A stretch of DNA of 64,000 bases, from positions 1-64,000 of the forward strand of contig CAMDTN010000006.1 in assembly GCA_945907755.1 (NCBI GenBank). Direction: 5' to 3'. This document shows positions 42,794 through 56,518 of the stretch, in pieces. This DNA comes from Singulisphaera sp. GP187 (GTDB taxonomy: Bacteria > Planctomycetota > GCA-002687715). Numbering within the stretch: position 1 is the stretch's first letter; every line of letters begins with the position of its first letter. The notes beneath the pieces were generated by a model. That model searched no databases. It had not been told where the DNA came from and saw nothing but the letters and a program-made list of their open reading frames with translations. Both the position numbers and the translations under genes were made by a program.

Positions 42794-44296
42794 TCACTTC
42801 ACTGCTGGGGTGGATCCGTCCGGCAGCGGCACGACTTCCTTCTGATCCGGCAGCTCGCCCCAGATGCCCCAGGGTTTCCATTTGCGCGGAGCTTGGCGTC
42901 GATCGGTCTGGATATGCCCGTACAGCGGCGTCACTTCTTCGTCGTAAGCCAGCCGCCCGTTCACCCAAGCCTTCTCTACAAAGGCGCGGTAGTCCAAGGG
43001 CTCGCGATCCAACAGCAACAAGTCCGCGTCCTTCCCCACTTCGAGGCTGCCCACGCGGTCGGACACTTGCAGCAATTCCGCCGGCGTCAGGGTAATGGCG
43101 CGGAGCGCTTCTGCATCGGTAACACCGCCACGCACAGCGAACGCCGCTTCAAGGTGCAAGCCCATCAAATCCCGCCCGCCAAGGAGTGTTGTGGTGATGC
43201 CTGTGTTCAAAGTGAGCACCGCCCAAGGTACGCCCGTGCGCTGCATGATCGCCGGGTTGTCGATGCGCCAACCATGCGGTGCACTGACATTGGGATCGGT
43301 GTAGGGCCGCGTGCCGCGAACACCCAATCCGCGCGGCAGCAGAACAACGCCGCGAGCGTGACGCCCCACTTCGGCAGGAATGGTCCATGCTTCTTGCGCT
43401 GTATGCAGCACTACGGGCACGCCAAACTCTGCGGCAAGGCCAAGCGCGTGTTCGATATGACGGCGATTGTCGGCGTAATAAAACACCGGGATGTCGCCAT
43501 CCATGGCTTCTGCCAATGCGGTGCACGCTTCGTCAGTCTTCGGCTCTTGCGCGTCCTTCTTGCCACCAGCGAGTTCCTTCAACCACGCCTTGCGCGCGGC
43601 GCGATGCTTCTTCGCGCGTTCGAACAAGTCGCGCTGTTCGGCGATGGCACCACCGCCCTGCGGCACCGGCGAATTCAAGTACAGCGCCGCCGGCTCGCGC
43701 AGCGCGAAACCCTCCACGGTGCCATGCGTGAGCTTGCCAACCGTGCCGCCCAGCACGCCGGTGTGCGATCCCGTGAACGCGCTACCGGAAAACCCAAACA
43801 GCCCGGCGAAATCTGCCATGCCACCAGATTCATGGGCCGTGGTGATGCCGTTGGCCAGCGCCAGCACCATGAAATCTGCGAAGGGATCGAAACGGTGTTC
43901 GCCCTTTTCTTTGCCGCTCGCATTGCGCAAGCCCAACGGGCCTTTCGCTGCAATGGCGACGAAACCCGGGCACACATGCTTACCCGTGGCATCAATGACT
44001 TCCGTGCCCGCTGGAATGTTGATCTCTTGGCCGACATCCACGATCTTCGAGTCTTTCACGAGAATTGTGGCGCCTTGCAGCACGGGCCCGCTGACAGTGT
44101 GAATGGTGGCGCCCTTCAACGCGAACCACTTGCCCGGCAGCTTCGTTTCCGGTGCGGCTGGCTTGGCAGCGTCGGCAGCCTTCGCATCAACGGCTTTGGT
44201 TTCCGGAGGTTTTGCTTCGGGCTTGGGCACATCGCCCTGAGCGTGAAGCGGCATCCAAGCGAGCAAGGCTGCAAGCAGCACGAGTGCGGTGCGCAT
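42794..44296 (-). CDS. Secreted amidohydrolase-like protein 8 of the array (degenerate metal site)
   Basis: Last gene of an eight-gene run. It has 500 residues: signal peptide [20 protein letters not shown], a Lys/Ala/Pro/Glu linker (~25-54), then an imidazolonepropionase-like fold recognised by the small beta-sandwich halves [19 protein letters not shown] and [19 protein letters not shown]. After the CPGF strand end, where catalytic members have HxH, it reads VAIAAKG; the late TDxP-type Asp is replaced in LTLNTGITT. It is therefore probably non-catalytic, or uses another site. The ATG shares a base with the preceding stop (TGATG). Confidence 0.8.
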
Positions 44297-45732
44297 CAGT
44301 TGTCCTCCTTCGAGGCTGAATAAATCTGCGTGCCACCCACTATCACCTGCACCAAGCGCGTCGCCGGGGCAAAGGGCTCGCCGTCGAACAGCAACACATC
44401 GGCGTTGCGCCCCACGGCCAATGCTCCAACACTTGCGCCCAGCCCTAAGACATCCGCTGGAGTTTGTGTGCATGAGCGCAGCGCATCGTTCGGGTCCATG
44501 CCGTGGCGAATCAAGTCCAACACTTGAGCGCGAAACTCTGCGAGCCCACCGGGCGCGCGTTGATCGGCCAGCAGGGCCAAGGGAATGCCTGCGTCCAGCA
44601 GCATCACTTGAGTGCAGCGGCGCGTGGCCACGAAAGGCACTTGGCTTAGCTGCGGCGAGAGCACGACGGTGAAGCCTAGACGCTTCAATTGCGGCAGCAC
44701 GCGCCAGAGATCTGGCCCACCGCGCATGGGCATTCCGGTGAAAAGCAATGCGGGCCGGAAAGCTACCTCGGCCGCAAAAATGGGTTCTGCATGCAGCAGC
44801 GCTGCTGCACTTGTCAGAGCCAACACTGCGGGAAGCTTCGCACGCAACGCTTCAACCAGCGGCATCAGCTTCGGGTCTTGCGTGGGTTCTTTCGCCGCTT
44901 CCTTCTTGGGCTCTTCAGGCTTCTTCTCGCCTTCCTTCGCGGCTTCTGCAGGCTTGGCTTCCGCTGCTTTCGCTTCTGCAGGCTTCGTCTCCGCAGGCTT
45001 CGCCTCTTCGGGTTTCGTTTCGGCCGGTTTGGCCTCTGGCTTCGCTCCGCCCTTCTGAAACGCTTCCAAGTCGCTGATGTATTTGCGCGCCTGAGCCAAG
45101 GTCTTGATCATGAATTCGCGCGTGGCTGTGCCGGGCTCGAAGCCAAGGGCCAGCGCAGCACGATCGTCGCGCACCAGTGCAGCCACATCTGGCAGCGTCT
45201 TTGCAACGGGCACAGGCTTCACCAACGAAATCATTCCCGGCACTCCGCCACCGGATGGAAATAGCGCCACCGTGGTGAACCCCGATTCAGCGAGCTGGCG
45301 CACTTCCGTCACGCTCGGGTCTAAACGCCCGCGCAAGACCTCGTCGCCTTTTAGAACCGAGCCAGAAAGCTCCATGCGTTCGCTCGTGCCGAAGAACTGT
45401 GCAGCAGGATGCACGAAGCCCGGCGTGGCCATCCACGAACGCTTTTCCATACGAGTGGCCCCAGCAGGGATTTCCACGCTCGCTTCAGGACCCACGGCGG
45501 TGATCTTGTCGCCGGTGACAACGATGACGGCGTTGTCCACCGGTGCACCGCTGACGGTGTAGGCACGGCGCACAAACCACGCTGTCACCGGTGCGCTCGC
45601 TGCAGGGGCGTCAGCCTCGGGCGTCGCTTCTGGCTGCGCCGGCGGGTCTTGGGCCAGCAGCGTGCCAGCCAAGCAGAGCAGTGCGGCTAAGCGCAGCACC
45701 TTAGAAACGCTGTCCGTCGCGTGCGGCGTCAT
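44296..45732 (-). CDS. Secreted amidohydrolase-like protein 7 of the array (Lys/Pro/Glu-rich insert)
   Basis: 478 residues. The N-terminus contains the export helix VLRLAALLCLAGTLLAQ. The amidohydrolase signatures are YTVSGAPVDNAVIVVTGDKI, TPGFVHPAAQF (only one His of HxH, shifted) and GALAVGRNADVLLFDGEPF. Residues ~228-288 are a striking repeat of KPAETKPEEAK-type units splitting the barrel. The late Asp region LLADQRAPGG is partly kept. The ATG at 45732 overlaps the previous gene by 32 bases; a GTG at 45699, one base after the previous stop and directly at the export helix, is a good alternative start. Confidence 0.78.
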   Translation of the reverse strand: MTPHATDSVSKVLRLAALLCLAGTLLAQDPPAQPEATPEADAPAASAPVTAWFVRRAYTVSGAPVDNAVIVVTGDKITAVGPEASVEIPAGATRMEKRSWMATPGFVHPAAQFFGTSERMELSGSVLKGDEVLRGRLDPSVTEVRQLAESGFTTVALFPSGGGVPGMISLVKPVPVAKTLPDVAALVRDDRAALALGFEPGTATREFMIKTLAQARKYISDLEAFQKGGAKPEAKPAETKPEEAKPAETKPAEAKAAEAKPAEAAKEGEKKPEEPKKEAAKEPTQDPKLMPLVEALRAKLPAVLALTSAAALLHAEPIFAAEVAFRPALLFTGMPMRGGPDLWRVLPQLKRLGFTVVLSPQLSQVPFVATRRCTQVMLLDAGIPLALLADQRAPGGLAEFRAQVLDLIRHGMDPNDALRSCTQTPADVLGLGASVGALAVGRNADVLLFDGEPFAPATRLVQVIVGGTQIYSASKEDN

Positions 45733-46948
45733 AAGCCACCTTTCCGTTCACCATGGTCAGTTTCACTTTGGAACGCGGATCGAACGGATCGCCGCTCCAC
45801 AAAACAATGTCTGCGTCTTTGCCCGCTTCGAGCGAACCCACGCGCTTCTCGATCTGCAGCATCTTGGCCGCGTTGATGGTCAAGCCCTTCAGCGCCACGC
45901 CTTCGGGCAACCCATGCCGAATGGCCATGGTCCCTTGGAAGGGCAACTCTTCTTGTGGCACCACTGGCGAGTCAGTGTTCAAGCCAATGCGGTCAGAGCT
46001 GACGCCCAGCCAGAACCAACTGGCCGCGAGCCCATAGAAGTGCCCGTCGTTGGGGCTGAGCCAGAAGATGCGCGGGCCGCAAGCAGCCGGCACTTCCAAT
46101 TCCACTGCCAACGGCGCGTTGATGAACCCATCGAACTCGCCGTGGTCAATGACAATCTTCAGCTTCAAGTCCCGCGCCAACATGCGCAGAGTGCTTTGCA
46201 CTACTTGGAAGATCTGCGTGTGCACGGCGCAGGGGTATTCGCCACGGAAGAGCCCGCGCAAATACTCGTAGCGCGAATCCTTGGCTGGCGCGGTGCTGCT
46301 CTTGCCACTTTCGAAGTCGTTCCACGCGTCGTGATAGGCCTTACCTTCCAGCAGCACATTGCGAATCATCCAGTTCATGCCCATGCGGCCAGAACCAAGG
46401 TCGCCATTGCCGCGTTCAGGGTTGCCGGCTTGCGCGATTTTCAAGGCGCCAGGGAAACGCACCACCACATCTTCAGGCTTGTCCCCGAAAGTTTTGACGA
46501 TGACGCCGAATCCGCCCATGTTGGTGCCGGATCCAGGAATGGACAGCACGGTGGTGACGCCACCGGCACAAGCAATCCGCATCTCCGCTGAGTTCAGCTC
46601 GATGTTGTCGAGCACGCGCAGCTCAGGGTTCACCTGATAAACGATGTCGTGCAAGTCCGAGGCTGCTGTGTGGTTGTGCAGATCGATGAAGCCCGGGATG
46701 ACGCGATGTCCGCTGGCGTCGATGACGCGATAACCGGCTGGTACCGCAACAGCACCCTTGGCGCCCACCGCTTCAATGTGTCCGTCTTTCACCAACACCA
46801 CGCCGTCGTCGATGGCTGGGCCATTCATGGGAAACACTTGCCCGCCTGTGATTGCGAAGCAACCATCCTGCAGCGGAGCCGTTGGGCCTACCTGCGCGCG
46901 CAACAGTGCGCAGCACACAAGCCCAAGCACCAGAGCTGTCTTCAACAT
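45701..46948 (-). CDS. Secreted amidohydrolase, the only array member with an intact metal site
   Basis: 415 residues with signal peptide MLKTALVLGLVCCALLRAQ. The metal-binding set is complete: His91-Asn-His93 in PGFIDLHNHTAAS, Lys170 in GALKIAQAGNP (position of a possible carboxylated Lys), His243 in CAVHTQ, His269 in IDHGEF and Asp326 in LNTDSPVV. It belongs to the imidazolonepropionase-like group acting on cyclic amides, peptides or similar C-N bonds; the substrate is unknown. It is exported, unlike classical HutI. Its ATG shares a base with the preceding stop (TGATG). Confidence 0.87.
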   Translation of the reverse strand: MLKTALVLGLVCCALLRAQVGPTAPLQDGCFAITGGQVFPMNGPAIDDGVVLVKDGHIEAVGAKGAVAVPAGYRVIDASGHRVIPGFIDLHNHTAASDLHDIVYQVNPELRVLDNIELNSAEMRIACAGGVTTVLSIPGSGTNMGGFGVIVKTFGDKPEDVVVRFPGALKIAQAGNPERGNGDLGSGRMGMNWMIRNVLLEGKAYHDAWNDFESGKSSTAPAKDSRYEYLRGLFRGEYPCAVHTQIFQVVQSTLRMLARDLKLKIVIDHGEFDGFINAPLAVELEVPAACGPRIFWLSPNDGHFYGLAASWFWLGVSSDRIGLNTDSPVVPQEELPFQGTMAIRHGLPEGVALKGLTINAAKMLQIEKRVGSLEAGKDADIVLWSGDPFDPRSKVKLTMVNGKVAYDAARDGQRF

Positions 46949-49848
46949 CAGCGACCTCCCCCGTCAACGAATTGTCCGCCCACCATGACGCGCAAGATGC
47001 GCGTCGCGGGAGCGAACGGGTCTCCACTCAGAATCACCATGTCAGCGTCGCGACCATTTTGGATGGCGCCGAAGCGCGCTTGCTGCCCTAAAACCATGGC
47101 GGGCCAGCGTGTCAACATTTTCAGCGCGTCGTCGGTGTTCATGCCTTGCTGCACCGCGTGAGCCGCAGCGGCATACAACCCCGCACCCGAAACGCCCATG
47201 CCGCGCAGCAAAACCGGAACGCCAGCGCGAGCAGCGTGAACCACAGTGGGCCAATCTTTGCCTTCAACTTGCAACACCGGTGCGCCTGCGGGCGCAAACG
47301 CCACACCCTTCTCTTTCAACAGCGGCAGCAGCGCGGGTAAATTCTCGGCACTCAGCAGCACCACACGCATATCCAGTTCGTCGCGGAGCAACGCAATCAG
47401 ACCGCGCGCCATGCGCTCGGAAGCCACAGCCAAATACAGCGGCGCTTCGCCAGCAAGCACTTCTTTCCATGGCTCCATGGAAGCGTTCTTGCGTGGAGCC
47501 TTGGGTTTGTCCTTGGGTTCGGCGGGCTTTGCGGCTGGCGCGGCGTCCTTTGCTTCCTTACCGTTCTTCGCGTCCTTTGGGTCCTTGGATTCCTTCGCGT
47601 CGGCAGCCACAGCGTCGGCAGCCGCGGGCACCGAAGCATCGCGCGTCATCAAGAAGCTGCCGGCAGCTTCTGCGTCCAATGTCAGCGTGCCGCGCCACTC
47701 GGAGCGCAACAGCGTGCCTTTGGCCACCACCGCTTTTTCGCCCAACTTGGCTTCAATGCGCAGCGCACCATCTTCAAGGACTGGCGTGCCTTCCAATGGG
47801 TCCTTGCCTTCGATTTTCACGATGGCGACCATGACATCTTTGCGCTTCTCGAAACGCAATTCCGCTGAACTGCAGCCCTTCTCCAGCGCCGACGACCACA
47901 CCTTTCCGTGCCACACGCCGCCCAGAGTTTCGCGCGCAATTCCCATAGCAGCGGGAGTCACCGCGCGCGGTTGCGCTGCGACGACATCCGGGTTTTTCTC
48001 GCGCCACGCGGCAAGATCTTTGTCGTACTTCTCCAAGGCCTCGAAATACTTCTTCACACCATCCACTTGCTTGCGCAAACGATCGACTTCTTCCAACGAC
48101 CAGCGAATGGTGCGGTAGTCGCACACGATGCCCGCCACGGGCAGCACCACAGGGCTCGGCTTCACAGCGCCAGCCTTCACAACCGACAGCGCGCCGCTGA
48201 TATTGCGGCCACCACCGGGCGTGAGCACCATGGTGGTCACACCAGCCTGCGCTGCGGTTTTCACATCGGCCTGTGTGGCGTCGTAGAGCGAAGAGGGATG
48301 TGTTTCTAATCCGAGCGGCGGCAGCGTGGCGGCGGGCTCAACTTCGCCCTCATCGTCGCGCAGGTTTTTGATGCCGCTCTGCGTACCAGCATCGACAAAT
48401 CCCGGGACCACCACCGCGTTGGGCATGTCCACAATGGTTGCGCCCGGTGGAATGGTGACGCCCAATCCAACACCGGCAAACTTGCCATCCACCACCAACA
48501 CGGTGCCGCCAACAATGGTGGTGCCATCGCCGGTCAGAATCTTCACGCCGCGCAGCGCGACGGGCCCTGCGCTGGCTGCAACCCCGGCTGCTTCGCTGCC
48601 GGACATCATCGCAGCATCACCGCCGTGAACGAGTTTCCCCCGCGCAATCACAGCAACGGGACGCGCCGCAGACAGCAACGGGTCGCGATCGAACAGCGCG
48701 AGGTCGGCCACTGCGCCCTCGCGAATGATGCCGGCTTCGATGCCCAGCACTTCTGCGGCACCAGCGGTCACCGCTCGCAATACTTGGGCGCGATCGAATT
48801 TGTCGCTGACATGTTGGCCCGCGTACCACAGCAAGTCCTGCTCTGCGCCACCTTCGGGCACCGCCAAGGCCACACGCACTCCGGCAGCATGAAGCAGCGC
48901 TGCTGCGTCGGGCTTCACTTCTAACGCGCGCTGGTTCCGTGGGTCTAAGCCCGGGTGCGCGCCTTGTTGCAAGACCACTGCTGCCTTGGCTTGCGCCAAT
49001 GGCCCAGCCAGCTTCCACGCTTCGCGCCCGCCTTCGATCACCAACGAGGCACCCGCTTCAGCAGCCAATTCGAGAGCCAGTTGGATTTCCGCTTCGCTAT
49101 CGGCGCGCACACGCAGCGGCGTCTTGCCCGCCACCACGCTGGCCAACGCCACCAACGCACCACGGTCGTCTTCGTCCCAATCGCCATCGGTGCCTGCAGA
49201 TAGCTTGCGTGACTCCGCAAACAACTCGCGCAACGCCAGCGCCGCGCCACCGCGCGTGCGTGGCAATTGGCGCTGCACATGAGGGCGGTTCTCAGGCCCC
49301 GGCGGAATCGCAGGCACATACAACGCTGGCGGATTCCAAGCACCTGGAGTCAGGACGGCATGCACCGCGCCCGCTGCGGGCAGCACACCGCCGCCTTCGC
49401 TGACAGGCCCCAACGAGACGGCGGAGCCTGTGCCGGGCACCAAGCGTTCGCGCCCTGGCGAAAGCCACGCGCTCGTGATGCCGGAAAACAATGTGGGTTG
49501 GCGCGCGAAGGCGTCATAGCCGTCGCCCGCGCGCACTTGCGGGAACACCGAGCGCTCGCTAACTGGCAACGGCGCGATGCTCACCGAATCGGCCAGCACT
49601 AAACCCGGCAACAACACGCCGCCAGCAACGCTGATCAGGCGTGCATCCGCCGCGCTCAAGGTGGAATCGCCGATGACGGCGATGCGGCCGTCGCGCACCA
49701 ACACGGAACGGTTTTCTTGAAACCCACTGCCATCGAACAGCGACACGCCGCGGATCAGAATCGTCGTGGCTGGTTGCCCTGCGGGCTCTTGCGCCGCTAG
49801 GCCCAACGCGCAACACAGCAACAAACCAAAGGCTCGCAGTAAGCTCAT
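46948..49848 (-). CDS. Tandem fusion of two amidohydrolase-like domains with inserted domain (degenerate)
   Basis: 966 residues, about twice the size of its neighbours. Signal peptide 1-20 (LGLAAQ). Domain 1 (~27-410) starts ILIRGVSLFDGSGF and ends IIREGAVADLALFDRDPL; domain 2 (~429-966) starts VALRGVKILTGDGTTIVGG and ends NGRDADMVILSGDPF. HxH is missing in both (LPGLVLADSV and VPGFVDAGTQ). Domain 2 carries an insertion: a coiled coil (~585-620), a beta-rich lipocalin-like block (~645-735) and a Lys/Asp/Ala/Pro linker (~740-790). It overlaps both neighbours by 1-4 bases. Confidence 0.8.
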   Translation of the reverse strand: MSLLRAFGLLLCCALGLAAQEPAGQPATTILIRGVSLFDGSGFQENRSVLVRDGRIAVIGDSTLSAADARLISVAGGVLLPGLVLADSVSIAPLPVSERSVFPQVRAGDGYDAFARQPTLFSGITSAWLSPGRERLVPGTGSAVSLGPVSEGGGVLPAAGAVHAVLTPGAWNPPALYVPAIPPGPENRPHVQRQLPRTRGGAALALRELFAESRKLSAGTDGDWDEDDRGALVALASVVAGKTPLRVRADSEAEIQLALELAAEAGASLVIEGGREAWKLAGPLAQAKAAVVLQQGAHPGLDPRNQRALEVKPDAAALLHAAGVRVALAVPEGGAEQDLLWYAGQHVSDKFDRAQVLRAVTAGAAEVLGIEAGIIREGAVADLALFDRDPLLSAARPVAVIARGKLVHGGDAAMMSGSEAAGVAASAGPVALRGVKILTGDGTTIVGGTVLVVDGKFAGVGLGVTIPPGATIVDMPNAVVVPGFVDAGTQSGIKNLRDDEGEVEPAATLPPLGLETHPSSLYDATQADVKTAAQAGVTTMVLTPGGGRNISGALSVVKAGAVKPSPVVLPVAGIVCDYRTIRWSLEEVDRLRKQVDGVKKYFEALEKYDKDLAAWREKNPDVVAAQPRAVTPAAMGIARETLGGVWHGKVWSSALEKGCSSAELRFEKRKDVMVAIVKIEGKDPLEGTPVLEDGALRIEAKLGEKAVVAKGTLLRSEWRGTLTLDAEAAGSFLMTRDASVPAAADAVAADAKESKDPKDAKNGKEAKDAAPAAKPAEPKDKPKAPRKNASMEPWKEVLAGEAPLYLAVASERMARGLIALLRDELDMRVVLLSAENLPALLPLLKEKGVAFAPAGAPVLQVEGKDWPTVVHAARAGVPVLLRGMGVSGAGLYAAAAHAVQQGMNTDDALKMLTRWPAMVLGQQARFGAIQNGRDADMVILSGDPFAPATRILRVMVGGQFVDGGGR

Positions 49849-51068
49849 CGACCCACCCCGAAGATTTCTGTCAAACGCGGGTCTTTGGAACGCTCGTAGG
49901 CAACCTTGCCGCCAATGATGCCGGTTTCTACCCACGCGCGCCCGCTCAGCGGATCGTCGGTGAGCACCAGAATGTCGGCATCTTTGCCGGGTTCGAGACT
50001 GCCTTTGCGCGCACCCATCCCAATGGCATCCGCTGCGTCGCATGTCACTGCTGCCAGCGCTTCTTCACGAGTCAATCCACTGCGCACCAACGAAGCCGCT
50101 TGATACCAGAGGTAGCGCCGTCCCAGCGACGATGGCGCTGTGGTCACTGCGAATTTCACTCCGGCCTTCTTCAGCATCTGCGGCAGATTGCGCACCACTT
50201 CTTCGCCGCTTTCTGGGTCTTGTTCGCGGAACTCAAATTCGCTGTCGAGGATGACCGGCAAGTTCTTGCCGGTCAACAGCGAAAACGCACGCCATGTACC
50301 ACCGCCAAGCACCAAACGAATCTTCAGCTTGTATTCGTCGGCGAGGCGCAGCGCTTGATCGACATCGGCTGCGGTGCCACAGGCAATCCACGCGGGGATT
50401 TCACCGCGCAGCATGCGCGCGAGTTCGCGCTTGCGACGATCGAGTTGGAAAGCCTCAAGATCAAAGCGCCCGTTGCCGCTAGCTGCCGCGGTGCTCTCTG
50501 CCTGCTTGCGCTCCAGATGCTGCTTGGCGTCGTCCAGCGCTGCGCGCAGTTTCGCCAAGTGCGCCGCACGATTGCCGGCAGACGGAATCAGCGACAACTT
50601 CATGCCCGCGTTGTCCACTTGCAGCAGGTCTTCGACCACCAACCCACGCGGCCGCAAGATGACGCCCGTCCCGCCGATGATGGTGCGTTCACCAGGCATC
50701 AGAGCGATGGTTAGGTGCCCGTCGCGCAGACAGTCCTCGAAGAAGGGGCGGCTTGGGTCCACGCCATCCAACACCGAAATGAACGGCGTCACTGGCACCA
50801 TTTCGTTGCTGCGGTCCATGCCTTCGCTGGTGTGGGCCAGCACAAAGCCCGGCATGATCACGCGGCCACGCGCATCAATCACTGTGGCGCTGCCGTCTGC
50901 GCTCAAGCCTGGGCCAACAGCTTCAATGCGCCCGTTGCGCACCAACACATCGGCCTCAGCCAGCTCGGCACCTTTGCAAGGAATCACCTTGCCACCGCGC
51001 ACCAACAGATCCTGCCCTGCAACCAGCGCCACCGCCGCCAAGAAAACTGCAATGCTTCTGAGAATCAT
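49845..51068 (-). CDS. Secreted amidohydrolase-like protein 4 of the array (one His retained)
   Basis: 407 residues. Signal peptide MILRSIAVFLAAVALVAGQ. LLVRGGKVIPCKGAELAEAD and KGSLEPGKDADILVLTDDPL mark the composite beta-sandwich. The HxH position reads PGFVLAHTSEG, keeping the first His only; the late Asp strand reads AVTTAPSSLG, without Asp. A helical segment with KQHLERKQAESTAA is inserted near 190. Its stop overlaps the next start (ATGA). Confidence 0.78.
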   Translation of the reverse strand: MILRSIAVFLAAVALVAGQDLLVRGGKVIPCKGAELAEADVLVRNGRIEAVGPGLSADGSATVIDARGRVIMPGFVLAHTSEGMDRSNEMVPVTPFISVLDGVDPSRPFFEDCLRDGHLTIALMPGERTIIGGTGVILRPRGLVVEDLLQVDNAGMKLSLIPSAGNRAAHLAKLRAALDDAKQHLERKQAESTAAASGNGRFDLEAFQLDRRKRELARMLRGEIPAWIACGTAADVDQALRLADEYKLKIRLVLGGGTWRAFSLLTGKNLPVILDSEFEFREQDPESGEEVVRNLPQMLKKAGVKFAVTTAPSSLGRRYLWYQAASLVRSGLTREEALAAVTCDAADAIGMGARKGSLEPGKDADILVLTDDPLSGRAWVETGIIGGKVAYERSKDPRLTEIFGVGR

Positions 51069-51071
51069 GAA

Positions 51072-52484
51072 TCACTCCCCCTTTGCGGCGGCTGGCCGCA
51101 ACACAATGCGTCCTTCGGTCATCACCAACACTGGCGTGCTGGTTGGCACCAACGGATCGCCACTGAACACCACGAGATCAGCATCCTTGCCCGCTTCCAA
51201 CGAACCCTTGTGCTTGGCGATGCCCAAGATGCGCGCGGGTTCCAAAGTCAGCATGCTCAACGCGCGCGCGGGGTCAAGCCCGTCGCGCACCGCGAGACGC
51301 GCGTAATCCAACAGATGCGTACCTGCACTGTCGCCACCACCGGCAAAGGCGCACAGCACTCCGGCGCGCACCAATTCGCGGGCCTGCGTGGTCACGGGAA
51401 CGCGGTTCTTGTCGACGGTGGTTTCACCCGCGCCAACGCCCGGAGCCATGCAACAATCCTGGCCCAAGTCGAAGAGCTGCTCTTCGCTGGTATCGATGGG
51501 GTGCGTAATGCCCTGCGCCGCCAGCGCGCCCAAGCGCGCACGCACTTCAGGCTCCACTTCGTGCAAGTGCTCGCTGTGCAGCGTGCCCGCGCCGTGGTCG
51601 TGAACAGCATCCATGCCGCCGCGCCCGCGCTGCCGCGCGTACTGCGCCCAATGCTGTTCGCCCAAGAGCAAGGGCACGCCCCGCGCCTTCAAGTCCGCCG
51701 CCGCGCCGGACGCGCGCACAGCCCCAGCACATATGTTGTGCGGGATGTGCAGCTCGTCGATCAACCGCAGCGCCGTCCAAATCTCTTTTTCCGTTTCCGT
51801 GTACCAGACCACAGTGCATTCGCCCTTGAGCGCGGCCACCAATGGCATCCAGTCGGCTTCGATGGCCGTGCCTGCCTTCAAGGCTTCTTGCACCTGAGTG
51901 AAGCTGGTGCGGACATCGTAGACAACGCCCATGCGCGAATTGGGTCGGCGCGAATAAAACCCCTGCCCGCCGCCGCCAGAGTTTCCGGCTGCGGGGTCCA
52001 ACCCGAGTGTGACGCACAAAAATGCGCCTTCATGGCGCGGGGTGCTGGACTGCGGCGATGTCGGCACGACTTGTGCCGCACCGGCAATCACTGCGCGCGT
52101 GCCCGGGCGCACCAGCAGCGTGGTGACGCCCTGCGCTAAGCGGCGCTTCACACTGACATGACGCGGTTCGTAGAGCGCTGCGATATTCACTTGCGGTGTT
52201 ACTTCGCGGCCTTCCTCGTTTTCGGCTCCGGCACGCGCCAATCCTGCGCTGCTCCAACCGTCGATGAACCCAGGCGCAATTTCTCCGGCACCGCAATCCA
52301 CAACTTCGTCACCGCTCAGCGCTTCGTTGCTGACCTCGGTGATGCGACCGCCAGACACCGCCACCCACGCAGGCGCCACGACACGCCCATCGCCCAAATG
52401 GGCCTTGGCTGCCTTGATCACCGTTTGCGCGTCCAGCGCAGCTGCACAGAGCAGCAACACCAAAAGGCCTTGCATCTTTTTCAT
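51072..52484 (-). CDS. Secreted amidohydrolase-like protein 3 of the array (degenerate)
   Basis: 470 residues. Signal peptide MKKMQGLLVLLLCAAALDAQ. IAPGFIDGWSSAG replaces PGFIDxHxH, so both His are lost, though the Asp of the strand remains. A His cluster (HDHGAGTLHSEHLHEV) near 300 is unusual and could bind metal independently. The C-terminus has KGSLEAGKDADLVVFSGDPL. It starts four bases after the stop of the upstream array gene and ends three bases before the next start. Confidence 0.78.
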   Translation of the reverse strand: MKKMQGLLVLLLCAAALDAQTVIKAAKAHLGDGRVVAPAWVAVSGGRITEVSNEALSGDEVVDCGAGEIAPGFIDGWSSAGLARAGAENEEGREVTPQVNIAALYEPRHVSVKRRLAQGVTTLLVRPGTRAVIAGAAQVVPTSPQSSTPRHEGAFLCVTLGLDPAAGNSGGGGQGFYSRRPNSRMGVVYDVRTSFTQVQEALKAGTAIEADWMPLVAALKGECTVVWYTETEKEIWTALRLIDELHIPHNICAGAVRASGAAADLKARGVPLLLGEQHWAQYARQRGRGGMDAVHDHGAGTLHSEHLHEVEPEVRARLGALAAQGITHPIDTSEEQLFDLGQDCCMAPGVGAGETTVDKNRVPVTTQARELVRAGVLCAFAGGGDSAGTHLLDYARLAVRDGLDPARALSMLTLEPARILGIAKHKGSLEAGKDADLVVFSGDPLVPTSTPVLVMTEGRIVLRPAAAKGE

Positions 52485-52488
52485 CGGA

Positions 52489-53640
52489 TCACTCCTTGCT
52501 TGCAGGCGCCACTACGACGCCTCCGTGAGGCGTCACTACGACGCCTCCGTGAGGCGTCACTAAAACGCCACCTTGAACCACGCGCAGCAGTTGCGCCCGC
52601 GCATCCGCGGGGTGTTTGCTGAACACCAAAACATCGCCCAGCTTGCCACTGCTGATCGAACCTACTTGGTCGGCCACGCCCAGTAATTCCGCCGCCGACA
52701 AGGTCAACGCACGCAATGCTGCGTCTTGCGCCAAGCCGCCGCGCACGGCAGTCAAAGCGCACAAACGCAGCGCACTGGCTGGCAACTCTGGTGCTGCGCT
52801 GCTGAAAGCGATGACGCCGCCTGCAGCCACATGCCGCGCCGGCACGGCGCTCAAGCGATCAGACAGCTCTGGCAACACGCGCGCGAACACGGTGCCACTG
52901 AAGGCCTTGGCCGCAGCATCGACGGAATCGCAGGTGTCCGCGGTGGTGAATAGGACAGCGCGCCCCTTGGCTCGCGCGCCCAAACGCAGGGCCACTGCCA
53001 CTTCGCGGTCGGTGTGGCAACCCACCAGCACGCCGCGGTCGACGGCGGCAGCAGCGTCATAGGCCGGTGCGCTTGCGCGTTCCAACAGTGCCAATGCGCC
53101 CATCAGGCTCGTAGGTTCACGCTCGCGGTCGTAGCTGCGTTCGCGCAAACACACGGCCAAACCTGCGTCGCTTTTCAGCACCTTCAATTCGCCGGTGGCA
53201 GTCGCACGCAACACAGCAGCGCGGCCGCCGAGCACATTGCCATCTTGCGGAAGCACCAACCAAGTGCTGGTTCCTGCCGCCAGTTGCCGCTTGATGGCGG
53301 GGTCGGATGGGTCCAGCGCATCCGCGAGGCGCAAGTCGGGCATCATGGCGCGTTGCGATTCCGCAAGCCCGCGCCGTGCACCGACACCGCAACCTGCATC
53401 CACGAAGCCCGGCACGACCACGCCTTCAGGATGGTTGATGACTAGCGCTTTGTCTGGCTCAGCCACATCCTTGCCAACCGCAGCGATGCGCCCATCGACG
53501 ATGAGCACTGCACCGGGGCTGTAATTCTCGCCCGACACGGTGATGACGGTGCCCGCACGAATCACGATGGTGCCGCCCTGCGCGCATAACGGCGTGATCG
53601 CGGCCACCAACAGCAGTAGGGACAAGGTGCGTTGCATCAT
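52489..53640 (-). CDS. Secreted amidohydrolase-like protein 2 of the array, with C-terminal octapeptide repeat
   Basis: 383 residues, the shortest member. Signal peptide ends TPLCAQ. TIVIRAGTVITVSGENYSPG begins the fold; VPGFVDAGCGVG has lost HxH; GSISSGKLGDVLVFSKHP is the C-terminal half. The last residues are an octapeptide repeat, VTPHGGVV twice and a third diverged copy, encoded by a 24 bp direct repeat. Coupled to the upstream member by an ATGA overlap. Confidence 0.78.
   Translation of the reverse strand: MMQRTLSLLLLVAAITPLCAQGGTIVIRAGTVITVSGENYSPGAVLIVDGRIAAVGKDVAEPDKALVINHPEGVVVPGFVDAGCGVGARRGLAESQRAMMPDLRLADALDPSDPAIKRQLAAGTSTWLVLPQDGNVLGGRAAVLRATATGELKVLKSDAGLAVCLRERSYDREREPTSLMGALALLERASAPAYDAAAAVDRGVLVGCHTDREVAVALRLGARAKGRAVLFTTADTCDSVDAAAKAFSGTVFARVLPELSDRLSAVPARHVAAGGVIAFSSAAPELPASALRLCALTAVRGGLAQDAALRALTLSAAELLGVADQVGSISSGKLGDVLVFSKHPADARAQLLRVVQGGVLVTPHGGVVVTPHGGVVVAPASKE
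52506..52577 (-). repeat. Three tandem 24 bp repeats at the 3' end of an array gene
   Basis: Units at 52506-52529, 52530-52553 and 52554-52577. The first two differ by one base; the third has diverged. In frame they encode PHGGVVVT-type octapeptides. Near-identity of two units suggests recent duplication. Confidence 0.85.
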
Positions 53641-54932
53641 GACTTCTTCCCGTCGATCACGCTTGTGCCAAACACCATTTTCTGCGGGGCCGCGCCATCG
53701 AGACTGAGCTTCGAGGTGCGCAATTGCAGCAGCGCAAGGCGCCCGGGCTCGACACTGCCGCAGCGTCCGCCCAACCCAATCGCTTCAGCGGCACCGAGCG
53801 TGAGCGCGCGCAGGGCCGCAGCCTCACTGAGCCCTTCGGCTACATGCAGCGCCGCGATGAGCGGTGCAGAATCGCTGCGATACCCGCGAGCACCGGCAGA
53901 CATGAAAGCGATGCGCACCCCTGCCGCATCCAGCTTGGCCGCAAGATCATTACGACGGCGCGGCGCCAGCAACGGCGACACCCACAAGGGTTGCGCTGGG
54001 CCCAAGACCACCACGGCCTTCGCTGTCGCCAGCTTGTCCGCGACTTCATCGGCCTCGCCACCGCCGAGCAGTACCAAACGCAATCCCTGCTTGGTGGCCA
54101 ATTCCAATGCTGCTTCGATGTCTTCACGCCAATGCGCTTCGATGCGCAACGGGGCCTTGTGATCCAGCGTGCGCAACACTGTCTCGTGCAACTCTTCGAT
54201 CCGCGGCTTCTGCGGAGGCAGCGATTTCTTGTCGGTTTTCTCGGGCTTGTCGGGCTTGTCAGCCTTGGCCTGCTTGGCCTCAGCCTCCTTCATATCCTTC
54301 GCGTGCTTCTCGACATCCTTCGTGTGCTTTTCGAAACTGGTGCGGTAACGCCGCGCAGCGCTTAACGCCTCGCCCACGGCAGCCACTTCGCCCGAACGCC
54401 CCATGCGTCCAGCAATGCCTTGGGCACGAGTGCCGATGGCAAAACTCAAACCGGCCAAGCGTTCGAGCACTGTGACATTCGCACCTTTCGGATCTGTGCT
54501 CGCGACGCACCCGACCAACCCGCGGGAGGCGTCTTGCAGGGCGATGTCCACATAAACCAAACCGATGCCAGCGCGGGCCAGCCGTTCGCGTGGCAGTGAG
54601 TCGTGGCCCTCAAACATGTCTGCGGCCATATCGCCAGCGCCGCCACGGAACGCCGAATCATCGAGTAGGCCCAAATTGGCGGCATCCACAAAGGCAGGCG
54701 AGATCACCAACCCGGTGGCATCCCACAGCGTGGCACCTTCGGCCTTCAGCCCTTCGCCCACGGCCTCAATGCGCTCGCCAACGATGAGCACATCCGCCTT
54801 GCGGGGAGCGCTATCCGCAGAGGTCTGCACCTGACCGCCCACAAGCAGAAGTCGTTGCTCTGGCGCAGATTGCGCCGACGCCATGCCGCGCACGAAAACG
54901 AGCAAGAGCAGTGGCAACAGGAGTATTCGCAT
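53637..54932 (-). CDS. Secreted amidohydrolase-like protein 1 of the array (first gene, degenerate)
   Basis: 431 residues. Signal peptide MRILLLPLLLLVFVRGMASA. LLLVGGQVQTSADSAPRKAD and GSVEPGRLALLQLRTSKL are the sandwich halves, the latter without the usual KDAD. ISPAFVDAANLG has neither His of HxH. A charged Lys-rich coiled segment (~199-243, KHAKDMKEAEAKQAK then DKPDKPEKTDKK) interrupts the barrel. As first gene of the operon its promoter should lie in 54933-55115, the gap shared with the divergent sigma gene; I saw no convincing -35/-10 pair for it. Confidence 0.78.
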   Translation of the reverse strand: MRILLLPLLLLVFVRGMASAQSAPEQRLLLVGGQVQTSADSAPRKADVLIVGERIEAVGEGLKAEGATLWDATGLVISPAFVDAANLGLLDDSAFRGGAGDMAADMFEGHDSLPRERLARAGIGLVYVDIALQDASRGLVGCVASTDPKGANVTVLERLAGLSFAIGTRAQGIAGRMGRSGEVAAVGEALSAARRYRTSFEKHTKDVEKHAKDMKEAEAKQAKADKPDKPEKTDKKSLPPQKPRIEELHETVLRTLDHKAPLRIEAHWREDIEAALELATKQGLRLVLLGGGEADEVADKLATAKAVVVLGPAQPLWVSPLLAPRRRNDLAAKLDAAGVRIAFMSAGARGYRSDSAPLIAALHVAEGLSEAAALRALTLGAAEAIGLGGRCGSVEPGRLALLQLRTSKLSLDGAAPQKMVFGTSVIDGKKS

Positions 54933-55115
54933 GCATTGGGCTCCGCGGGAGAACGGACGCACAGTATACGGGGCGCGCCGCGCACTGTGGCTTGTGCGCT
55001 GCGGCAGGCGCCCCGCGCCTCTGCCCCGTGCTCTGCAACACCGATTCGGAATAGAATCATCCACCCTTCGGTTCAATCTGCTGGCTCGAACGCAGCCCCA
55101 GCATCCTTGGCCACC

Positions 55116-55721
55116 ATGAATAAAACCAGCGACATCAACTCGTTCGAGCGCGCGCGCTTCCTGCTGCTGCTGGACCCTGTGCTGCCCGGTTTGTGGCGCA
55201 CGGCCTTACGCCTTGTGCGTGAACGGCACGGCGCAGAGGACTTGCTGCAAGCCGCCACGCTGAAGGCCCTGCGCTTCTTCGATTCCTACGCCGAAGGCAC
55301 CAATTTCAAAGCGTGGATGTACCGCGTTCTGTACACCACGCACATCAACCAACGGCGTGACCGCGAACCCGACGCGCTGCAGTTGATCGAAAGCATGGAC
55401 CGCGACCGTAGCGGCGCCGGCCTCCTGCGCGAACTGGAGCGACCCACCCATGCCGAGCGCGCGGCCGCCGTGCTGGACGCGGTGGACGACCAGATCCGCG
55501 GCGCCGTGGATCGATTACCAGAGCACTTGCGCATCGTGTTCTTGCTCAGCGCCATCGAAGGCCTGAAGTACCGCGAAATCGCCACAGTCTTGGAATGCCC
55601 CATCGGCACCGTCATGTCGCGACTGTTCCGCGCACGCGAGGAGTTGCAAGACCAATTAGCAGCGCACGCCCGTGACATCGGCTGGCCAGTGCCAGCACGC
55701 GAAGACGAGGTGGCCGAATGA
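55116..55721 (+). CDS. ECF-family RNA polymerase sigma factor
   Basis: 201 residues. Region 2 contains RTALRLVRERHGAEDLLQAA and FKAWMYRVLYTTHINQRR; region 4 contains LPEHLRIVFLLSAIEGLKYREIA and CPIGTVMSRLFRAREEL, the helix-turn-helix for -35 recognition. It overlaps the start of the anti-sigma gene (ATGA). It is divergent from the eight-gene amidohydrolase array and is a candidate regulator of it. TAGAAT at ~55054 could be a -10 for this gene, without a clear -35. Confidence 0.92.
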   Translation: MNKTSDINSFERARFLLLLDPVLPGLWRTALRLVRERHGAEDLLQAATLKALRFFDSYAEGTNFKAWMYRVLYTTHINQRRDREPDALQLIESMDRDRSGAGLLRELERPTHAERAAAVLDAVDDQIRGAVDRLPEHLRIVFLLSAIEGLKYREIATVLECPIGTVMSRLFRAREELQDQLAAHARDIGWPVPAREDEVAE

Positions 55722-56518
55722 AATGCGTTGAAGTGCGCACACGCATGCCCTTGCTGCTCAGCGACGAAATGGAAGCAGCTCATGTGGTCGCAATGTTGCA
55801 GCACCTGAACATGTGCGCGCAGTGCAGCGAGCACGCACGCAACGAAGAGCGCATTCGTGCACGGCTGGTGGCGGCGCTGGGCAGCGAAGCCCTACCCGCC
55901 AGTGTGCAAGCGGGGTTGACTGCGCTGCTGGCTGCGCCGGCCACGCGCGTGCAGCGTTGGTGGCCATGGGCCGGAGCCGCAGCGGCCATTTTGCTGTGCT
56001 GCCTGCCGTTCTTCGAACAACAACCCAGGCCTGCGAGCGATCCGCAAATTCCAGAGACCCCGACAGTCGGCACCACTTTTTGGGGCCCCGACGGCGTGCA
56101 GCAGAGCGAACGCACACCGCTGGTCGACCTCGCGCGGCTTGAGAATCTGGCCACCACCGAGCGCACCCTTGATGGGGCTGCACTCGCCGTGTTCTACGCC
56201 GGCCTCACAGACATCGAACGCCCGCAAGGTTGGTACCGGCTGTTCACGCCCGCCGCACAACGCAACAGCCCCGTCACTGAAGCACGCGTGCCTGCTGATC
56301 GTTCGCGCATCTTCACACTGACTCTGGGCACTGCCATGGAACTGGGCCTTGATGTTGCGACGGATGGCGTCCTTGGTGGCGCGCGCGTGTTAGGCGACAC
56401 CGCGGCCCAAGTCGTGGTCATCCGCGACGGCGACCAATGTCATGTGCTGGTGACTTCAGGCCGCCTGCGTTCGCTGGCCTTCATGCTGCATCTGGCGGCG
56501 CGGTCTTCGTCGAACTGA
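55718..56518 (+). CDS. Membrane anti-sigma factor with zinc-finger (ZAS-like) domain
   Basis: 266 residues. The N-terminal cytoplasmic part has HLNMCAQC (HxxxCxxC), the zinc motif of ZAS anti-sigma domains. One membrane helix follows at ~82-98 (WPWAGAAAAILLCCLPFF), then a ~165-residue exterior domain of unknown fold (FYAGLTDIERPQGWYRLF). It pairs with the preceding ECF sigma factor and presumably senses an envelope signal. Its 3' end overlaps the convergent methyltransferase gene by 38 bases. Confidence 0.85.
   Translation: MKCVEVRTRMPLLLSDEMEAAHVVAMLQHLNMCAQCSEHARNEERIRARLVAALGSEALPASVQAGLTALLAAPATRVQRWWPWAGAAAAILLCCLPFFEQQPRPASDPQIPETPTVGTTFWGPDGVQQSERTPLVDLARLENLATTERTLDGAALAVFYAGLTDIERPQGWYRLFTPAAQRNSPVTEARVPADRSRIFTLTLGTAMELGLDVATDGVLGGARVLGDTAAQVVVIRDGDQCHVLVTSGRLRSLAFMLHLAARSSSN

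Follow-up and report, generated by a model that had tools for sequence, protein, structure and literature searches.

The window analyzed here is a 64,000-nucleotide stretch of Singulisphaera sp. GP187 DNA, lying in contig 6 (CAMDTN010000006.1) of a 2.68-Mb assembly of 94 contigs. Within it, eight adjacent minus-strand genes (positions 42794–54932) encode nine amidohydrolase domains, named H-G-F-E-(D1-D2)-C-B-A in transcription order, and a complete catalytic metal site is found in domain C only. The best explanation of this array, to which a probability of roughly 0.6 is assigned, is that the operon encodes an exported hetero-oligomer with C as its catalytic subunit and the other proteins as non-catalytic subunits; complex formation, the roles of the partners, and the substrate are the proposed elements of this model.

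In the model, C would be the metal-dependent catalytic subunit, the only one in this genome. A, B, D1, D2, E, F, G, and H, which have lost the metal site, would share its fold and serve as subunits that build the assembly, either stabilizing C or shaping access to its site and the specificity of that site. The paralogs would have arisen by repeated duplication of an ancestral active/inactive pair, of a kind that persists in other phyla, and C would hydrolyze an amide or peptide bond of a small peptide or N-acyl amino acid. A single complex is plausible because the gene set is fixed, members are fused to one another, and the genes are translationally coupled.

Operon layout, metal sites, and selection

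The open reading frames and their translations agree with the earlier note on this DNA, which had described eight adjacent genes with divergent motifs in place of HxH: all eight are present, and every quoted motif reads as written (Table 1). The note had also given each gene a signal peptide and joined the genes by overlaps or gaps of a few bases. This description is borne out when probable inner starts that carry signal peptides are used for A (44296), D (49848), and H (54932); the intergenic distances from H to A are then -4, +4, +3, -4, -1, -32, and -1 bases, which correspond to overlaps of 1, 4, or 32 bases and gaps of 3–4 bases. From this layout, the array is a single translationally coupled operon. 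The Pfam family Amidohydro_1 matches all eight proteins with E values of 2.7e-5 to 7e-18, the match to H falling just below the curated cut-off.

C alone among the eight proteins of the window carries H91, H93, H243, H269, and D326. When the ligand columns were read with a C-specific profile at 44 array loci, all five ligands together with K170 were present in 75 of 75 C domains, tandem copies included, and the complete five-ligand set was absent from every partner domain. The claim that a single gene of the array keeps the site is accordingly true of this genome; the C-type gene is single at 28 of the 44 loci, and the remaining loci have two to five adjacent C copies, all with intact ligands. 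Amplification of C to three to five tandem copies, with partners remaining single, was seen at L050, L061, L066, L067, L072, L073, L074, and L081.

Loss of the site in the partners is extensive. H, F, D1, D2, B, and A mostly have zero or one metal ligand; in H orthologs, none of the five is found in 31 of 35 and one in the other four. E orthologs retain the first histidine (H91) in 32 of 40 cases and the lysine (K170) in 35 of 40. Four of the five ligands are reached among partner domains only by the G domains of L047 and L076, two deep lineages, and ligand loss in G may therefore have been late or parallel. The fourth ligand is glutamine or glutamate in some active homologs outside the array. 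The conserved alignment columns contain no alternative conserved set of His, Asp, Cys, or Glu ligands in any partner. Columns conserved at ≥95% number 53 in C, 30 in A, 29 in E, 21 in D2, 19 each in D1 and F, 10 in B, 4 in G, and 3 in H. Invariant polar residues are nearly absent from B, G, and H. The conserved polar residues differ by member, for example K188, E302, W304, R322, and R389 in A and N88, E89, D101, and R115 in E.

Relative to the closest congener (NG86), the ratio of nonsynonymous to synonymous substitution rates (dN/dS) is lowest for E (0.054), followed by C (0.059) and A (0.064), and lies at 0.105–0.165 in the remaining domains, values that are approximate at a dS of 1.15–1.69. 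E and A are hence as constrained as the catalytic domain, and H and G are the fastest-evolving members. The earlier note had proposed this comparison, with a ratio near 1 as the sign of decay; every domain lies at 0.05–0.17. With the fold also kept in both partners that were modeled (D and H), it is well supported that the partners are conserved pseudoenzymes rather than decaying genes.

Distribution and history of the array

The sample comprised 20 whole-genome stretches (this genome and relatives) and 79 named loci, annotated with a profile derived from the nine domains of the array in this window; 44 array loci were labeled, of which 33 are complete. A search of other genomes for the same gene order, suggested in the earlier note, gave a uniform answer: all 33 complete arrays read H, G, F, E, D1-D2, one to five C, B, and A. 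Because the order recurs without variation, the array is not a product of chance. Incomplete arrays end at a contig end, except for L052 and L057, both metagenome-assembled, in which the frame of G or H is broken, possibly through assembly errors.

The hosts of the 33 complete arrays are nearly all Planctomycetota. Hosts named in the records include members of Planctomycetia and Phycisphaerae, Pirellula, and Pla86, along with numerous unclassified Planctomycetota; two labels lie outside the phylum, that of a metagenome-assembled genome called Chthonomonas (Armatimonadota; L076) and one of Bacillota (L065). In the tree, the C domain of L065 adjoins those of the Planctomycetota genomes L048 and L049. 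The complete array under the Chthonomonas label (contig CAIONQ010000002.1) could reflect horizontal transfer, mis-binning, or an older origin. Planctomycetes bacterium Pla86 (L073), whose chromosome is finished, also carries a complete array, which makes the system amenable to expression and testing. In 294 planctomycete genomes drawn evenly across the phylum, the profile of domain E has matches at E ≤ 1e-50 in 83, and in 50 of the 154 good-quality genomes, from many families; some weaker matches are probably paralogs. These counts suggest that E, and by extension the array, occurs in roughly a quarter of Planctomycetota. C itself is 91% and 79% identical to its orthologs in two congeners and 64–67% identical to those in three more genomes of the same family.

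In a FastTree phylogeny, every position of the array forms an essentially pure clade (F-score 0.94–1.0). A quick mixture-model tree of 103 domains (IQ-TREE) requires 11 changes for the ten labels, compared to 73 expected on shuffling; in this tree, whose deep branches are weak, C, E, A, and B are starred single clades and H and D1 do not resolve cleanly. Because each position is essentially one orthologous lineage, the expansion is ancient, and the nine positions are an old set that has mostly been kept vertically. The earlier note had posed a choice between a single expansion and independent recruitment; the phylogenies favor a single ancient expansion, and recruitment of unrelated amidohydrolases was rejected by the trees.

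C clusters (96, starred) with catalytic members of one- to three-gene sets from Bacillota, Gammaproteobacteria, Bacteroidota, Aminicenantes, and other Planctomycetota. In these simpler sets, the inactive members mostly fall among the partners of the array; an exception is the one from Tissierella, which is sister to the active gene of its own set. Among the C copies, two or more deep catalytic lineages can be told apart; the second is the copy beside B at many loci and the sole C at L047 and L076. Because other lineages have active/inactive pairs and triads, the division into catalytic and non-catalytic members is probably older than the array. The array resembles an elaborated form of such an enzyme–pseudoenzyme pair.

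Simpler sets, in which an active gene lies beside or is fused to one or two degenerate ones, were seen at L084, L087–L090, L099, L022–L024, and L027–L030, in other phyla as well as in other Planctomycetota. At L083 (Candidatus Fermentithermobacillus), two adjacent family genes, both with all five ligands, are flanked by a gene for an M14 peptidase on one side and a DUF3100 region on the other.

Proposed physical association, known systems, and rival readings

Every array that includes D has it as a D1-D2 fusion; H and G are fused at L042, L053, L055, and L082, and B and A at L047. Fusion being a usual sign of physical association, these cases are indirect evidence of contact between the members. 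Export of every chain appears to be conserved, because an N-terminal hydrophobic segment is present in 65–90% of the orthologs of each gene, compared to 0–7% for internal control segments; no signal segment precedes D2 in any of 38 orthologs.

Single-protein structure prediction, another check raised in the earlier note, returned the amidohydrolase fold for both partners modeled, D (19-row alignment; mean predicted local distance difference test score, pLDDT, 70.9; predicted template-modeling score, pTM, 0.56) and H (AlphaFold; 18 rows, pLDDT 76.2, pTM 0.77). For the other partners, the fold is assigned by sequence profile. The best structural match of both models is 3OOQ, with template-modeling (TM) scores normalized by target of 0.78–0.81 (D) and 0.74–0.75 (H), followed by prolidase, carboxypeptidase, and isoaspartyl dipeptidase structures, among others. 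The fold of C, a TIM barrel with a small beta domain, is assigned by sequence, with Amidohydro_1/3 over the cut-off and a phmmer match to 3OOQ of 3e-43 over residues 36–404.

The Thermotoga maritima amidohydrolase 3OOQ is thus the closest solved relative of C and has the same HxH, His, His, Asp site. In contrast to the array, it appears in the structure list as a single protein with an intact site and no pseudoenzyme partners described alongside it, and its entry title assigns no function. Sequence relatives of C also include the vertebrate dihydropyrimidinase-related proteins (CRMPs). CRMPs are without a metal site and act as non-enzymes, but they are eukaryotic and cytoplasmic and are not encoded in an operon with an active enzyme. 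The eukaryotic 20S proteasome beta ring and plastid ClpP/R are hetero-oligomers of paralogs that conserve many subunits devoid of catalytic activity; their folds are unrelated, and an oligomer of the array proteins is a proposal. In the Pseudomonas aeruginosa aspartate transcarbamoylase–pseudo-dihydroorotase (ATCase-pDHO) dodecamer, an inactive amidohydrolase chain is an obligate subunit (PMC7053772). This precedent counts toward a hetero-oligomer because an inactive amidohydrolase is needed there for the enzyme complex. Like pseudoenzyme subunits of this type, the array partners have kept the fold, have lost the site, and are under purifying selection. However, ATCase-pDHO is cytoplasmic, with one kind of pseudoenzyme and a catalytic partner of unrelated fold, whereas the array places eight pseudoenzyme domains beside their own active paralog in an exported system.

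Enzymes with one dead paralog are known already. An operon in which eight inactive domains, all paralogs of one enzyme, have stayed in the same order across a phylum is new as far as found: the earlier note knew of no system with this layout, and the open-access literature, most subscription journals being outside its scope, yielded no description of amidohydrolase pseudoenzyme arrays or of planctomycete arrays. The array offers a natural test case for the growth of hetero-oligomer complexity and would account for many genes that pipelines would label amidohydrolase, mostly without a hydrolase site. A more specific version of the model is offered tentatively and is somewhat doubtful, namely a large exported, fully hetero-oligomeric particle made up of nine distinct paralogous domains and having a single catalytic seat, for which some lineages have alternative C copies. 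If true, it would represent a periplasmic counterpart of the proteasome/ClpPR design, derived from a metabolic enzyme family and conserved across much of Planctomycetota.

Several observations weigh against the hetero-oligomer. Tandem C copies without matching partner copies do not require a fixed stoichiometry, the placement of D1 relative to D2 is not confident at the pTM obtained, the few conserved columns of H, G, and B leave little for fixed interfaces, and the substrate class draws on distant homologs (~30% identity). Alternatively, the degenerate members might be separate exported ligand-binding proteins, receptors or carriers for the substrates or products of C that form no complex with it. 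Retention of the fold after loss of the metal site would fit this reading, and the member-specific polar residues of A and E could line individual pockets. It is nevertheless judged unlikely, since the order is constant and the set complete, different members are joined by fusions, and the very low conservation of H, G, and B would be odd for binding pockets.

Less likely still is a multi-enzyme pathway in which certain partners, E and A in particular, act as enzymes, whether through a metal site that is mononuclear or rearranged or through a mechanism that needs no metal. The histidine and lysine retained by E in most genomes, the C-like constraint on E and A, the G domains with four ligands (L047_G and L076_G), and the active outside homologs with a substituted fourth ligand are all compatible with such activity, but no partner shows an alternative set of conserved ligands, and B, G, and H nearly lack invariant polar residues. 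The notion that the degenerate genes are decaying pseudogenes or relics of tandem duplication could appeal to the ligand loss itself, to the rapid evolution of H and G, and to the broken H or G frames at L052 and L057, which are perhaps assembly errors. Decay is ruled out for practical purposes by the low dN/dS and by conservation, with order and open frames kept in 33 complete arrays from many families and orthologous lineages of great age. The exported hetero-oligomer with C as its catalytic subunit is preferred.

Substrate, gene neighborhood, and coordinates

The substrate of C is probably a small peptide or N-acyl amino acid, cleaved at an amide or peptide bond, because relatives of C outside the phylum adjoin genes for oligopeptide-binding or transporter proteins and for M24 (Tissierella), M14 (Fermentithermobacillus), and M28 (Aminicenantes) peptidases, and because of the fold neighbors named above. 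C scores below the curated NCBIfam cut-offs for Xaa-Pro dipeptidase (NF051886, 76.8 versus 500) and imidazolonepropionase (TIGR01224, 54.5 versus 298); all such matches being sub-threshold, a substrate assignment from NCBIfam was dropped. A deacetylase function by analogy to the Thermotoga protein was also dropped, a literature search having turned up no paper that names that protein.

Within 8 kb, the array has no constant metabolic neighbor. The only recurrent genes in this range resemble those for anthranilate phosphoribosyltransferase (judged by eye; downstream at 10 loci), an acyltransferase (6 loci), and a topoisomerase (4 loci). The extracytoplasmic function (ECF) sigma/anti-sigma pair upstream of the array in the window forms no recurrent cluster beside other arrays.

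Table 1. Genes of the array and the adjacent regulatory pair in the window, with predicted roles
Feature	Position	Strand	Predicted role and motif	Further details
Gene H	53637..54932	-	Non-catalytic domain, VDAANL	First operon gene; longer TTG start listed at 55076
Gene G	52489..53640	-	Non-catalytic domain, VDAGCG	Amidohydro_1 1.9e-6; 4-base overlap with H; dN/dS 0.165
Gene F	51072..52484	-	Non-catalytic domain, VDGWSS	Amidohydro_1 6e-16; dN/dS 0.135
Gene E	49845..51068	-	Non-catalytic domain, VLAHTS	dN/dS 0.054
Gene D	46948..49848	-	Tandem fusion D1-D2, VLADSV / VDAGTQ	
Gene C	45701..46948	-	Catalytic amidohydrolase, HNH	H243, H269, D326, K170
Gene B	44296..45732	-	Non-catalytic domain, VHPAAQ	Lys/Glu/Pro/Ala-rich linker; dN/dS 0.105
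Gene A	42794..44296	-	Non-catalytic domain, VAIAAKG	Last operon gene; inner ATG 44296; dN/dS 0.064
ECF sigma factor	54855..55721	+		Divergent from gene H
Anti-sigma-like zinc-finger protein	55718..56518	+		Follows the sigma factor; divergent from gene H

D2 contains, at approximately residues 640–780 of the modeled chain, an inserted stretch of beta strands and a low-complexity linker rich in Lys, Glu, Pro, and Ala, and linkers resembling it are found in B and H.

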